Source: Bacteroidales bacterium (GTDB taxonomy: Bacteria; Bacteroidota; Bacteroidia; Bacteroidales; UBA932). Taken from it: a stretch of DNA of 64,000 nt. The notes under the pieces are model-generated. The model was given only the letters and a program-made list of their open reading frames with translations. It made no database searches and had not been told where the DNA came from. Shown in pieces: positions 6,958-53,810 of the stretch; the first letter of the stretch is position 1, and each line of letters begins with the position of its first letter. A program made the translations under genes and the position numbers. The stretch lies in the NCBI GenBank assembly GCA_017423025.1, contig JAFPGC010000032.1, forward strand, positions 19,918 through 83,917. The letters are read 5' to 3'.

Positions 6958-6985
6958 ATCTATTAATTGTGTAGTTATCAATTCG

Positions 6986-7106
6986 GATGAATAGGTACCC
7001 TCCTGAGACTACGGACCTTCGGTCCTATCCCTCCCACCGCTTCGCGGCGGGCCCCTCCCATTCACGAGCATGGGCGGCTACGGTCTCAGGAGGGTACCTA
7101 TTCATC
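6986..7106. repeat. Long palindromic element, copy 1 (structured core with unique outer arms)
   Basis: Outer arms 6986-7009 and 7083-7106 are perfectly complementary (24 bp). They enclose a 73-nt core that shares the order TACG, hairpin, an identical 35-nt block and a final CTACG with the second copy at 53029-53156. The core can fold into hairpins at 7013-7025 (5 bp), 7033-7051 (7 bp with a mismatch) and 7057-7074 (5 bp). It begins five nt after the cstA stop and ends before the ATPase start. No U-tract follows on either strand, so it does not look like an ordinary terminator. I do not recognise the family. Confidence 0.85.
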
Positions 7107-7111
7107 TATTA

Positions 7112-8563
7112 TTATTTACTTCTAGTTCTCCAAAGATAGAATAAAAAGGACGAAATCGCAAAGGTGATTACGCCAATGAGGGGTGCCAGCGTCTGGGGAA
7201 GACGCAGGCCGATTTTATCCACCATAATGAAGGTGACGCACACGGAGGTCATGAACAGGGCCGGCAGCAGGGTAATCAGATACCAGCGCCCCCCCTTGGT
7301 GCGATACAGATAGACGGTAGCCGTCCAGAGCATAAACACGGCCAGCGTCTGGTTGCTCCAGCCAAAGTAACGCCAGATAACGTTGAAGCCGTTGGCATCG
7401 GCAATATTATACCAAAGCAGGAAGGCCGATGCGGCAAAGAGCGGAATGGCGATGGCAAGGCGCTTGTGAATGTCCTTCTGGGGCAGTTTGACAAAATCGG
7501 CCACAATGAGACGGGCACTGCGGAAAGCCGTATCACCGGAAGTAATGGGGGCCGCAACCACGCCCAGGATGGCCAGGATGCCACCCATCAGACCCAGCCA
7601 GTTCTCCGAAACCTTGGTTACCACGGCAGGTGCCGCGGCACTCATACTGGAACCCACTTCCTCGGCACCGCCGGAGAAGAAGAACCAGGAAGCGACGGCT
7701 GCCCAGATAAGGGCCACGAAACCTTCCGTAATCATGGAGCCGTAAAAGACGGACCTTCCCAGTTTTTCGTTCCGGATGCATCGAGCCATGAGCGGGCTCT
7801 GCGTGGCATGGAAGCCGGAAATGGCTCCGCAGGCAATGGTAATGAACAGGCAAGGGAAGATGGGCTGGTTCTTAAGGCCGGCCTTTTCGGACCAGCCGCC
7901 CAGGCCGTCCCATAGTTCCGGCAGCGTGGGCCACTTGATGAAGAGGCAGACCATAAGGGCAACCGCCATGAAGAGCAGCGCCACGGCAAAGATGGGATAT
8001 ACCTTGCCGATAAGCTTATCGATGGGCAGAAGCGTAGCTATCAGATAATAGAAGAAGATGATGCCCACCCACAGCATGATGGAGCCGCGGCTACCGTCTC
8101 CGGCAATGTCTCCAAGGATAAGGGCCGGGCTGTAGACGAACACCGTTCCTACCAGCAGGAGCAGCACGATGGAGAACACCAGCATCACCCGCTGGGTCCT
8201 TTTGCCCAGATAGTCTCCCACCAGATCCGGGAACCCGGCACCTCCGTGACGCACGGAAAGCATGCCGCACATATAATCGTGCACGGCTCCGGCAAAAATG
8301 CAGCCCAGGACAATCCACAAATAGCTGGACGGGCCGAATTTGGCACCCATGATGGCACCGAAGATGGGACCCGTACCGGCAATATTGAGGAACTGGATCA
8401 TATACACTTTCCAGGTAGGAAGGGGGATGTAGTCTACGCCGTCCTGCATCTCAATGGCCGGTGTTTTCCGGCGAGGATCGGGGCCGAAGGCACGGTCTAC
8501 GATTCTACCATAGATGAGATAGCCCAGAATCAGGGCCACAATGCTGATGAGGAAGGAGATCAT
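7112..8563 (-). CDS. cstA: Carbon starvation protein CstA family pyruvate/peptide transporter
   Basis: This 483-residue inner-membrane protein belongs to the CstA family, linked to uptake of peptides and, in enterobacteria, pyruvate. Family signatures include QFLNIAGTGPIFGAIMGAKFGP near residue 55, GAVHDYMCGMLSVRHGG near 90, and FHATQSPLMARC in the middle; many hydrophobic spans follow. The length matches the short CstA form common in anaerobes. It starts three nt after rsmD ends, so it belongs to an operon with rsmD, the DUF3822 gene and the upstream membrane protein gene. The substrate here is not determined. Confidence 0.9.
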   Translation of the reverse strand: MISFLISIVALILGYLIYGRIVDRAFGPDPRRKTPAIEMQDGVDYIPLPTWKVYMIQFLNIAGTGPIFGAIMGAKFGPSSYLWIVLGCIFAGAVHDYMCGMLSVRHGGAGFPDLVGDYLGKRTQRVMLVFSIVLLLLVGTVFVYSPALILGDIAGDGSRGSIMLWVGIIFFYYLIATLLPIDKLIGKVYPIFAVALLFMAVALMVCLFIKWPTLPELWDGLGGWSEKAGLKNQPIFPCLFITIACGAISGFHATQSPLMARCIRNEKLGRSVFYGSMITEGFVALIWAAVASWFFFSGGAEEVGSSMSAAAPAVVTKVSENWLGLMGGILAILGVVAAPITSGDTAFRSARLIVADFVKLPQKDIHKRLAIAIPLFAASAFLLWYNIADANGFNVIWRYFGWSNQTLAVFMLWTATVYLYRTKGGRWYLITLLPALFMTSVCVTFIMVDKIGLRLPQTLAPLIGVITFAISSFLFYLWRTRSK

Positions 8564-12214: not shown

Positions 12215-13247
12215 ATATCTCCTATTAGCCGCCCTGGGTTTCGCGCTCATGGGATGTGCCAAAGAAAACACGCCCTCTTCGGGAGAAGTGGCCCGCCAAT
12301 ACCTGAGTCTGTGGATGGACAAATACCATCCCGGCATTGACCCCAATGCCGATGGTCTGTACATCCTGCAGGACAATCCCGGCACGGGAGACCTTTGGGA
12401 TGATTCCAAGAGTTATACCTACGTAGAGGTGACCATCAGCAACCTCAACGGCGTCATTTCTTCCACAACCGATTCCACTCTGTCCAAACAGCTGGGCACT
12501 TACGTCAAGGGTAACTATTACGGTCCCCGCTTCCAGAGCACTGGAGAAGGGAGCAGCTATGCCGGTTTTGACGCCCTCCTCAAGGGAATGCGCGTGGGAG
12601 GAAGCCGCCAGGCGGTAGTTCCCTCGTGGTTACTGACCACAAGCCGCTACAAAACCGAGAAGGAGTATCTGAATGCAGCGACTTCCGCCGCTTCCCTCAT
12701 CTATAGGGTAACCCTCAGAGGCCAGACCGACGACGTGGCTGATGTCGAAAAAGACAGCCTTACCCGCTATGTCTTGCGCAAATATGGCAGCGTCGCCCCT
12801 TCTACTTACAAGACTGACGAAGAGGCCGATGGCACTTTCTATTTCATCAGTGACACCTCGGCTTTCATCAACAGCGGCGTAGAACCCCGCGGAGCCAATG
12901 ACGAAGGCAAAATCAACTACACCGGCCGCCTCCTCAACGGGCAGTTATTTGACACTACGGTGGAAAGAGCGGCCAAGGATGCCGGTATGTTCGTCAGGGA
13001 TAAGAGCTACGAACCGGTAACCATTACTTTCGCCTCCGAGTGGAAAAGCATTGCCATGGGAAGCAGTTCGTCCCTCATTGACGGTTTCAAGGGTGGTCTT
13101 TACAAGATGAGATACCCGGGCCAGAAAGCCATTGTGGTTTTCACCTCCACCCACGGATATACCAGCACCGGAAGCGGCAGCACCATTCCCGCCTGGTCCC
13201 CCCTGGAGTTTGAGCTGGAGTTGGTCAGCCTAACCCGTCTGAATTAA
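12204..13247 (+). CDS. FKBP-type peptidyl-prolyl isomerase lipoprotein with two FKBP-like domains
   Basis: This 347-residue protein has a signal peptide with lipobox (LMGC, Cys18). Two FKBP-like units follow. The first spans roughly residues 60-175, with FDALLKGMRVGGSRQAVVPS and a closing SLIYRVTL strand. The second spans roughly residues 225-345, starting at INYTGRLLNGQLFDTT and containing IDGFKGGLYKMRYPGQKAIVVF and the closing IPAWSPLEFELELVSL. The second unit is closer to the canonical fold. It probably helps fold secreted or outer-membrane proteins. It lies four nt upstream of the MATE gene. Confidence 0.8.
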   Translation: MKTKYLLLAALGFALMGCAKENTPSSGEVARQYLSLWMDKYHPGIDPNADGLYILQDNPGTGDLWDDSKSYTYVEVTISNLNGVISSTTDSTLSKQLGTYVKGNYYGPRFQSTGEGSSYAGFDALLKGMRVGGSRQAVVPSWLLTTSRYKTEKEYLNAATSAASLIYRVTLRGQTDDVADVEKDSLTRYVLRKYGSVAPSTYKTDEEADGTFYFISDTSAFINSGVEPRGANDEGKINYTGRLLNGQLFDTTVERAAKDAGMFVRDKSYEPVTITFASEWKSIAMGSSSSLIDGFKGGLYKMRYPGQKAIVVFTSTHGYTSTGSGSTIPAWSPLEFELELVSLTRLN

Positions 13248-13250
13248 GAT

Positions 13251-52500: not shown

Positions 52501-53030
52501 CCTCCACCGTCCTGTACCACGTGGATCTTCTGGCCGATTCTGCCGACCAGTTCTCCACCTTCGCCAAGATGTACGACCAGAAGGCCGAAAGGATAGACCT
52601 GGACGCCCTGGTGCGCCAGGAGGTAGACCTCTTCGACTCAAGGGATGATGTTCAGATTGAATACTTCGGCCTGGAAGGCGCCTTTGTGCACGCACCGCGC
52701 CCGCAGCTCACCCGCGTGGTGGTGAACCTCATCACCAACGCCATCCAGGCGGTGGAAGACATGGACGCCCCGCGCCGCCTGCTGGTAGCCGTCCGCAATG
52801 CCGACGAAAACGGCTTCTACAACGTTGTAGTTGAAGACAACGGCCCGGGCGTCTCCGAACAGAACCAGGACAAGATCTTCACCCCCGACTTCACCACCAA
52901 GACCAGTGGCAGCGGCCTGGGTCTGGCCATCTGCAAACGAATCGTAGAGCACTGCGGCGGCACCATCGCCTATTCCCGCTCCTTCGCCCTGGGCGGAGCC
53001 TGCTTCACCATCAAACTTCCCAAGGCCTAG
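49527..53030 (+). CDS. Very large multi-span sensor histidine kinase (NtrY-like)
   Basis: This 1167-residue protein begins with one span (~10-30) and a periplasmic domain (~32-212), followed by a cluster of about six spans (~215-430). A second extracytoplasmic domain lies at ~430-652 and spans at ~655-675 and 693-717, then a third sensor domain (~720-855), a span (~858-885), HAMP (~885-945), HisKA with His957 in RRVAHDLKNPLTPIK, and HATPase (N-box near 1067-1072, DNGPGV near 1104, GSGLGLAI near 1128). The HisKA/HATPase part resembles NtrY. The input signal is unknown. The likely partner is the response regulator at 53887-55035, beyond efp. The stop codon is overlapped by a palindromic element. 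Confidence 0.88.
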   Translation: MNRKRSIRQWWAVALMAAAVIVYIISALVGTGRSDVTSAAQEMSRKVEVRMNLLDSYIEQALQGDPTTWMDLQGLPEDMVVYRYFDDSLQSWANQFPLRNDDIHLRTLVQRLGDTRSSLASPLWEASAQPSFVNYGPKWYLVKAIEGDNCKVVAGLEIVNELSTAQSGVNRHFRVNERYSVRPLSAGVGAPVCVNGEPLFLLTDETLAEPSGTHSALLWLAIGLLFAGLILLLSVHPTLPWLVGVMLCQIAVLGWLYLNGPHLFLNTQLFSPLLYADGPLLYSLGAVILVNLGLNLVVMDLFLVRWTLLKQVRRLHSRTLLWVVAGLLLLLLLAIATYLHLTFKSILINSSINLELYKVFLLNDYTAVVYISFLALSITLPVLLQMLSPFVRVLLGIRYDIFTPVGRLVYAICIGVYFVVASSTLGFSKEQRRIDVWAARLAMDRDIALEIQLRSAENAIASDPMIGALSVLDGSEDIIRSRLTSAFMSRISQDYDITVVLPGADVTVATLFQERVRSGTRLGDNSHFFYTSLGEGRTAYTGLFSYYMEGYGSRLVLISVESKHNREDRGYLSLLGISDPGRVSLPSVYSWAKYNTDKLVQYKGSYAYPTVYSGRLRQLAEQHSSGHVDLEGWCHFVRNVSDEEVIILSRPQTEWLYYVVEAFLFSILAFGLLTWLSWRKRNSGSRRYFQNRISLVVYVSLLVTLVAMAVFSVWFVYKRNNSDMNSVMTSRINTLQGMLQEHLRQVDHPEQLSTTQNLAAVEGVGNNLRCDITLFDVAGRVVMSTTPEVYDRMILGQRLDNDAIYNILYAHKRFYMQKERVSRRSFYALYAPVFNSRGNMIAIVSSPFTDLSQDFESEVILHVATVITIFLLLLLISRFVTFIMVSRLFRPLTALSRKMTVSDVDHLEPLVYDGDDEITPLVEAYNRMVQVLGESSRRLAQVERDKAWTDMARRVAHDLKNPLTPIKLQLQMLMRMKESGNPAWQDRFDEVASTVLYHVDLLADSADQFSTFAKMYDQKAERIDLDALVRQEVDLFDSRDDVQIEYFGLEGAFVHAPRPQLTRVVVNLITNAIQAVEDMDAPRRLLVAVRNADENGFYNVVVEDNGPGVSEQNQDKIFTPDFTTKTSGSGLGLAICKRIVEHCGGTIAYSRSFALGGACFTIKLPKA

Positions 53031-53156
53031 CCCTACAGGGAGTGCCTCCAAAAGGTACGCGCCTACGGCGCTATCCCTCCCACCGCTTCGCGGCGGGCCC
53101 CTCCCGTTCACGAGACACGGGCGTCTACGCCTTTTGGAGGCACTCCCTGTAGGGCT
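53029..53156. repeat. Long palindromic element, copy 2 (structured core with unique outer arms)
   Basis: Outer arms 53029-53055 and 53130-53156 are perfectly complementary over 27 bp and unrelated in sequence to the arms of copy 1. The 74-nt core contains the same 35-nt block (53071-53105) and hairpins at 53059-53071 (GCGCC/GGCGC) and 53103-53121 (CCCGT/ACGGG). Compared with GGACC/GGTCC and CCCAT/ATGGG in copy 1, these change bases on both sides of the stem. The left arm includes the last two bases of the kinase stop codon. No U-tract follows. Confidence 0.85.
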
Positions 53157-53240: not shown

Positions 53241-53810
53241 ATGGCAACAACTGCTGATCTGAAGAACGGAATGTACATCATGTTCAACGGCAAACCTTGC
53301 GCCGTGGTGTACTTCCAGCACGTCAAACCCGGCAAGGGCCCGGCCTTTGTCAAGACCAAACTCCGCAACCTGGAAAACGGCCGCATCCTTGAGAACACCT
53401 TCACCGCCGGTGTCAAGCTGGACACCATCAGCGTGGAGCGCCGCCCCTACCAGTTCCTTTACGATGACGGCGAGGCCTTCAACTTCATGCACGAAGAGAC
53501 CTACGAGCAGATCACCCTTCCCCACGACGTAGTGGACAATGCCGACCTCATGAAAGAAGGCCAGCACGTGGAGATGATGTTTATGACCGAACCCGAAGAG
53601 CGCTGCCTCACCTGCGAGCTTCCCACCTATGTCACCCTAGAGGTTACCTATTCCGAGCCTGCCGTGAAGGGCAACACCGCCTCCACCTCGGCCCTGAAGG
53701 AAGTCACCCTGGAGACCGGCGCCAAGATCATGGTTCCCCTCTTCATCGAGACCGGTGAGATCATTACCGTGAACACCACCGACCGTTCCTACGGCCAGCG
53801 CGTGAAGTAA
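53241..53810 (+). CDS. efp: Elongation factor P
   Basis: This 189-residue translation factor relieves stalling at polyproline. Three beta-barrel domains are visible: the N-terminal KOW-like domain (LKNGMYIMFNGKPCAVVYFQHVKPGKGPAF), the middle OB domain (ERRPYQFLYDDGEAFNFMHEETYEQI) and the C-terminal OB domain ending in IMVPLFIETGEIITVNTTDRSYGQRVK, with the conserved RSYxxR. The loop tip is HVKPGKGPAF, in which a Lys is the expected modification site. It has its own promoter and a terminator. Confidence 0.96.
   Translation: MATTADLKNGMYIMFNGKPCAVVYFQHVKPGKGPAFVKTKLRNLENGRILENTFTAGVKLDTISVERRPYQFLYDDGEAFNFMHEETYEQITLPHDVVDNADLMKEGQHVEMMFMTEPEERCLTCELPTYVTLEVTYSEPAVKGNTASTSALKEVTLETGAKIMVPLFIETGEIITVNTTDRSYGQRVK

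Follow-up and report, generated by a model that had tools for sequence, protein, structure and literature searches.

The question raised by this locus is what kind of sequence keeps a conserved core between long, almost perfectly paired arms, and how it spreads and changes. The window, the whole stretch of 64 kb analysed here, contains two palindromic elements of about 125 bp, with perfect arms of 24 and 27 bp and cores of 73 and 74 nt, respectively, whose coordinates and pairing, already described in the original prediction, were re-derived. We propose that they are probably copies of a non-autonomous mobile palindrome of ~100-180 bp that acts like the Rickettsia palindromic elements (RPEs), and whose arms and core are reworked by template switching.

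The two elements of the window

Copy 1 (6986-7106; 24-bp arms, 0 mismatches, 73-nt core) is composed, on the + strand, of a left arm (6986..7009) in perfect pairing with the right arm (7083..7106) and of a core (7010..7082) in which TAC, hairpin A (7013-7025), CCCT, hairpin B (7033-7051), CCCCT, a pseudoknot strand, hairpin C (AGC/GCT, 7067-7079) and ACG follow each other, the pseudoknot being formed by CCCAT (7057-7061) and ATGGG (7070-7074). It takes up all the sequence that separates a CstA-like gene, which has its stop at 7112 (- strand), from a HerA-like ORF starting at 6981 (- strand), its core is antisense to both, and congener G208 (L074) also has an element at this site. Copy 2 (53029-53156; 27-bp arms, 0 mismatches, 74-nt core) has, also on the + strand, its left arm at 53029..53055, its core at 53056..53129 and its right arm at 53130..53156, with hairpin A at 53059-53071, hairpin B at 53079-53097, the pseudoknot between CCCGT (53103-53107) and ACGGG (53117-53121), and hairpin C (AGAC/GTCT) at 53113-53126. 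Its left arm begins inside the TAG stop codon of a histidine-kinase gene, from which it takes its first two bases (AG), and its right arm lies upstream of the EF-P gene, which starts at 53241. An orthologous element is present in congener G019 (locus L079/L058), and congener G220 (L105), where the kinase and EF-P genes meet in the same way as judged by eye, lacks the element.

Reading the two copies side by side confirms the predicted common block of 35 nt (CTATCCCTCCC...CCCCTCCC) and the predicted paired changes, which affect two hairpins. Two occurrences of a 31-nt core pattern were counted in the window, against a mean of 0.00 in 100 shuffles, and the two copies are the only perfect inverted repeats of the window with arms of at least 14 bp and a spacer of at most 170 nt. 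Whole elements have folding z-scores between -8.0 and -10.3, on either strand and whether folded as DNA or as RNA, against -1.0 to -1.6 for the core alone; the case for a core structure is therefore one of covariation and not of energy. We also noticed, on the - strand opposite the core (7029-7059 and 53075-53105), a GGGAGGGG-hairpin-GGGAGGG sequence, a possible G-quadruplex (loops of one base) and potential competitor of hairpin B.

Copy number and distribution

A covariance-model search of this genome and its relatives had been proposed in the original prediction, together with a count of copies and of arm perfection. With a model built on seven copies, 25 matches were obtained in the own genome at E<=1, 20 of them at E<=1.4e-8; the five weakest are variants, mostly with an enlarged core, whose arms are still 21-28 bp long, and arms of at least 15 bp are present in 23 of the 25. 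The 31-nt core pattern, with up to three mismatches, occurs 12 times in the same genome. Of 200 genomes of the genus, counting the own genome, 159 have a match (E<=0.01), as do five of a sample of 393 genomes of the order (E<=1e-4), namely the own genome, one other of the same family and three of other families (4/392 when the own genome is set aside). A pattern scan of named genomes gave at least 118 stretches; the 80 matches listed are from Bacteroidales or Bacteroidia MAGs, and include many herbivore-gut MAGs and two Candidatus Cryptobacteroides species. No match to the exact 19-nt core pattern was observed in viral contigs.

Core identity is no different within (0.734) and between (0.729) genomes, and recent bursts are therefore not the general rule. 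L121 and L124 have identical cores and different arms, the C41 and C87 copies of the own genome have nearly identical arms, and L228 and L253 have their arms in common. In G089, ten fetched copies (L076, L108-L116; three near contig ends) are alike in their flanks and nearly identical in their arms, and the element there therefore rides within a larger repeated sequence. Two copies lie 2 kb apart in C63 among what we take, from their sequences, to be ordinary genes, with no transposase.

Fold of the core

The core is formed by three hairpins and a covarying pseudoknot. Among 103 matches from 100 loci, this structure is paired in 97.9% of its 3377 cells; shuffling lowers the figure to 67.9%, and sliding the structure to 34-50%. 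The alignment is fitted to the covariance model and so biased toward it for all helices except the pseudoknot. The pseudoknot (CCCRY/RYGGG) is paired in 99.2% of cases though absent from the model, and each of its two variable positions shows two or three pair types. Two-sided changes are observed in 966 cells and one-sided changes in 15 (103 aligned copies). Conservation of the core appears to go beyond what drift would leave, which, with the covarying pseudoknot, suggests that the fold is read by something; the conserved C-runs and the pseudoknot would point to a folded strand read by some protein or by replication itself.

Covariation of the three hairpins and the pseudoknot is what would be expected of a functional structured RNA (a 3' UTR stabiliser, a processing site or a riboregulator) with stems covarying under selection, and many copies are, in fact, near gene 3' ends. 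The rarity of one-sided changes argues against an RNA, as does the absence of Rfam matches on the element, both in the window at gathering score and in nine loci at E<=5, where the nine weak matches are all outside the elements.

Pairing and sequence of the arms

The mismatches of the arms also bear on an RNA. In 155 distinct elements, a sample in which the arm finder and the searches favour well-paired copies, the arms have a median length of 20 bp and are without mismatch in 101 elements. Only 67 of 3126 arm pairs are mismatched (on the core strand, 15 G-T, 32 A-C and 20 other), and wobble-type mismatches, counting either strand, total 47/3126. Real RNA stems show more G-U. An RNA in core orientation should favour G-U over A-C, and the opposite is seen; read on the opposite, G-rich strand, the same mismatches are 32 G-U against 15 A-C, a count with which an RNA of that strand is compatible. 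GT pairing is also described as frequent in REP stems (PMC3733652). The rare one-sided changes and the few wobble mismatches suggest that arm pairing is maintained as DNA.

The arms had been predicted to be unrelated between copies. This holds for their outer part, which is almost without consensus, and fails for the inner ~14 bp, in which a weak consensus was recognised (109/155 copies, those that could be re-aligned). Ungapped arm identity is 0.49 (inner) and 0.31 (outer) within genomes, and 0.37 and 0.27, respectively, between genomes, G089, with its copies inside repeated sequence, being omitted from this comparison. Since global arm alignment has a high chance baseline (0.56), we relied on the ungapped comparison and on named pairs.

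Inversion of the core at shared sites

Elements of different genomes with both flanks alike form 45 pairs at 19 sites, and the orientation of the core is opposite in 18 of these pairs and at nine of these sites, among them each of the three pairs with the most similar flanks (95.6, 92.8 and 91.7% identity). In L068/L123 (95.6%) and L192/L200 (91.7%) the arms are nearly unchanged and their inner single-base differences keep to the frame of the flanks and not to that of the core; therefore, only the core turned. In L176/L053 (G207 and G203; 92.8%) the outer arms have almost nothing in common, and rewriting or separate insertions may be the reason. In L117/L252 (88% flank identity) the inner part of the arms was altered en bloc on both sides, and both species retain one outer mismatch. 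Inversion of the core between its arms, as seen at these sites, accounts for the opposite orientations of the two window copies relative to the genes that they follow, remarked on in the original prediction.

Template switching between inverted repeats was reported to homogenise arms and to invert spacers, with inversions confined to repeats with arms over 9 bp and with inverted spacers a few bases long in the cases described (PMC8604942), and loop inversions with simultaneous compensatory changes were also reported (PMC8794818).

In one further pair, L065/L220 (88% flank identity), the arms are alike and the cores belong to different subfamilies, as would be expected if the core alone moved, into the loops of pre-existing palindromes or terminators; elements also adjoin stop codons, as terminators do. 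However, such long perfect palindromes are rarely seen without the core, and the window has none. In ~1.04 Mb of loci that overlap in part and were mostly selected because they hold the element, 47/154 palindromes lack the core; 26 of these 47 have spacers of less than 20 nt and a few have variant cores or RAYT hairpins. The empty sites compared (G220; G019, G139 and G174) hold no long palindrome by eye. We consider movement of the core alone very improbable.

Genomic context and empty sites

For 122 elements taken with their surroundings, and with genes defined by simple ORF calls, 38 of 101 gene 3' ends are located -8 to +10 nt from the arm and just five lie deeper, while 22 of 90 gene 5' ends are located 10-20 nt from the arm. 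Relative to gene 3' ends within 20 nt, the core is in sense orientation in 24 cases and in antisense in 28. This lack of preference, with the flips between close species and the copies that lie in open frame inside protein genes in either orientation, argues further against a functional RNA, which we consider unlikely overall.

Sites without the element exist. The GlpT/GlpC gap holds an element in G000 and is 14, 19 and 31 nt long, without the element, in G019, G139 and G174, respectively. Because these empty spacers have no likeness to the arms by eye, arm, core and arm seem, from this sequence comparison, to arrive as one unit. In the gap before hypA an element is present in G000, G005, G203 and G207 and a remnant in G062, and the gap is, by eye, of at most 15 nt in 22 of 28 congener loci.

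The original prediction included insertion with duplication of flanking DNA in inverted form, which could occur by snap-back synthesis, with the arms made by inverted copying of ~25 nt of flank. The left arm can, in fact, overlap the end of a conserved gene, stop codon included, in which case the right arm repeats some of the coding sequence in inverted form (copy 2; G000 C31:18021), and the mtaB genes of G061 and G149 have a right-arm-like sequence with the core and most of the left arm missing. Nevertheless, the arms at GlpT/GlpC match no ancestral spacer (14-31 nt) and no inverted flank duplication is apparent there by eye, arms in tight gaps stop near the stop codon and rarely extend deep into the gene, and the G061/G149 state is equally explicable as a deletion. 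Other shortened copies are present at that position in G156 and G148. Formation of the arms by snap-back seems improbable to us.

Exact adjacent repeats, as expected for a target-site duplication, were not found at lengths of at least 4 nt (0/125), and those of 3 nt number seven, against 2.2 in shuffled sequence. Repeats of at least 5 nt anywhere within the 12-nt flanks number 17, against 7.5, and give no clear signal of target-site duplication.

We also identified a second palindromic family of ~55 bp (TTTTTCTACCCC-loop-GGGGAGCGAAAAA, with GAC-rich ends), which fills the same gaps in other species, in both orientations by eye. It is present at the L126 site (12900-13250) in G156 (L133), G170 (L138) and G062 (L147), and at the GlpT/GlpC site in G061 (L171) and G062 (L172).

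Copies inside protein-coding genes

Many copies, overlooked in the original prediction, are located within genes: of 122 elements with 500 nt or more of sequence on each side, 25 lie in an ORF of at least 150 aa that extends 50 aa past the element on each side, some of these frames being possibly spurious, and a looser listing has 30 entries. Host ORFs were identified by scanning ten with Pfam and ten with NCBIfam, in partly overlapping sets. The MtaB host matches TIGR01579 in one stretch across the insert (396 bits, cut-off 357), and the YgiQ and PBP1C hosts match curated models with 749 bits (cut-off 462) and 660 bits (cut-off 494), respectively. In the MFS, PolA, MurB, UvrA and UvrD/PcrA hosts there are model matches on either side of the insert, and the TilS domain ends immediately before its insert. 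The MFS gene carries the element in G203 and G207 in opposite orientations, with the frame open in both. Open frames in elements amount to 2.66/6 against 2.18/6 in shuffled sequence, which is little excess.

For the MtaB linker, 30 loci from 32 genomes searched were compared by eye, one of which was not read in frame. The element is found in one orientation in G000, G062, G163, G019 and G164 and in the inverted one in G028, G081, G078 and G034, and loci such as those of G156, G148 and G207 have it in shortened or altered form; in the remaining loci it is absent or other repeats are present. Other structured repeats, C- and G-rich (GGCGCC...GGCGCCCGGCCG), lie in frame at this linker in L441, L446 and L447 (G171, G101 and G208, respectively), and L443 has a tandem repeat there; the linker therefore looks like an insertion hot spot. 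The linkers of L451, L452, L422 and L430 contain in-frame short repeats (CATTCCGAGCGAAG...) encoding CHSERSEES- or VIPSEVEESP-like peptides.

Search for a mobilising enzyme

A transposase gene with the core at its ends, which the original prediction had suggested looking for, was not found. One candidate is a RAYT (REP-associated tyrosine transposase), by which the element would be mobilised as a REP-type repeat: of the 200 genomes of the genus, 143 have Y1_Tnp (PF01797) matches (E<=0.001), and REPs are likewise described inside replication and repair genes (PMC3733652). However, the single Y1_Tnp match of the own genome has different hairpins of its own alongside, and among 30 congener loci none has the element beside the gene, four having core-like sequence ~1 kb off. 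There is also no GTAG tag outside the stem: no more than 53 of 103 copies could have CTAC, two bases of which are paired in hairpin C. RAYT as mobiliser is not supported by these loci, and we give this explanation a low probability. The RAYT-like Y1_Tnp gene itself (~344 aa; G000 C19, L186) is flanked on both sides (786-876 and 2024-2112) by near-identical nested hairpins (GTGCGGTAGACGTCCCA...), and a related hairpin is present in L005.

Proposed mechanism

We hypothesize that arm, core and arm enter a site as a single unit, which would survive where it is harmless, in short gaps by stop codons or as an in-frame protein linker. The arms would then act as an inverted repeat for template switching during replication: one arm would repeatedly template the other, so that mutations enter both arms and the pairing stays near-perfect while the sequence drifts, and switching between the arms would turn the core, leaving it in either orientation at the same site. 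Template switching fits because arms are rewritten together, one-sided changes are few, the core turned between unchanged arms, and there is no orientation preference outside genes, and we hold with good confidence that it is the cause of the arm and flip behaviour. We infer that the element would move through an enzyme or through replication itself, and that it would have no function for the host.

Several observations weigh against this mobile, template-switched palindrome, namely that neither a transposase nor a clear target-site duplication was found, that the core seems too conserved for drift alone, that arms are not always new (C41/C87 and L228/L253), that the arms of G207 and G203 could stem from separate insertions, that well-paired copies are favoured by the searches and the arm finder, that the mismatch of L117/L252 persists in both species, that 74 nt would turn here against the few bases described in PMC8604942, and that the mismatches read on the G-rich strand favour G-U. 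In an alternative without a transposase, the folded core would stall replication, move by template switching, take new arm sequence at each landing site and supply in-frame linkers to core genes; we regard this as possible and rather unlikely.

Comparison with known elements

No description of this element was found among the best-ranked papers of the literature search. Our best reading is that it works like RPEs, which are of ~150 bp, palindromic, dispersed and found in frame within unrelated genes (PMC10969869, PMC3733652); here too, a palindromic repeat of ~100-150 bp is present in many copies, many of them genic and in frame. RPEs belong to another phylum, and the likeness proposed here is one of mode of working. 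To our knowledge, inversion of the core between the arms, with joint rewriting of the arms, has not been described for RPEs. Quasi-palindromes under template switching are alike in arm homogenisation and spacer inversion (PMC8604942, PMC8794818), and in our element the arms seem to be homogenised as DNA and the spacer is inverted between unchanged arms (L068/L123 and L192/L200). The reported cases are mutational events that affect ordinary sequences and have spacers only a few bases long, whereas the element is a dispersed family with a structured spacer of ~74 nt at many sites.

REP/REPIN sequences with RAYT are also palindromes by gene ends, some within repair genes, but are described with stems of 5-13 bp, a GTAG/CGTC tag and frequent GT pairing (PMC3733652). 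In contrast, the arms of the element are mostly 15-30 bp long and untagged, with G-T in 15 of 3126 pairs. Terminal repeats of MITEs are features shared by a family, whereas the outer ends of the element differ in most copies, with outer arm identity little higher within (0.31) than between (0.27) genomes, C41/C87 and L228/L253 being exceptions. Bacterial MITEs such as ERIC and BOX are otherwise comparable, as small non-autonomous repeats sometimes fused in frame to genes (PMC10969869). The repetitive hairpin-forming elements of sponge mitochondria are likewise dispersed and apparently mobile, but have, according to their description, conserved stems and variable loops, the reverse of what is seen here (PMC2800124).

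The dispersed, apparently non-autonomous palindrome initially predicted, with a covarying conserved core and with arms that differ at most sites, is supported by these data. If our reading is true, the element would be a natural replicated record of template switching in bacteria, in which arm rewriting and long-spacer inversion can be counted at many sites, in a host genus found in many herbivore guts. Stem covariation, usually read as the mark of a selected RNA, may stem from a DNA mutation process. The copies in murB, polA and uvrA suggest that RPE-like protein-coding palindromes exist outside Rickettsia, and that new linkers in proteins can come from a selfish hairpin.
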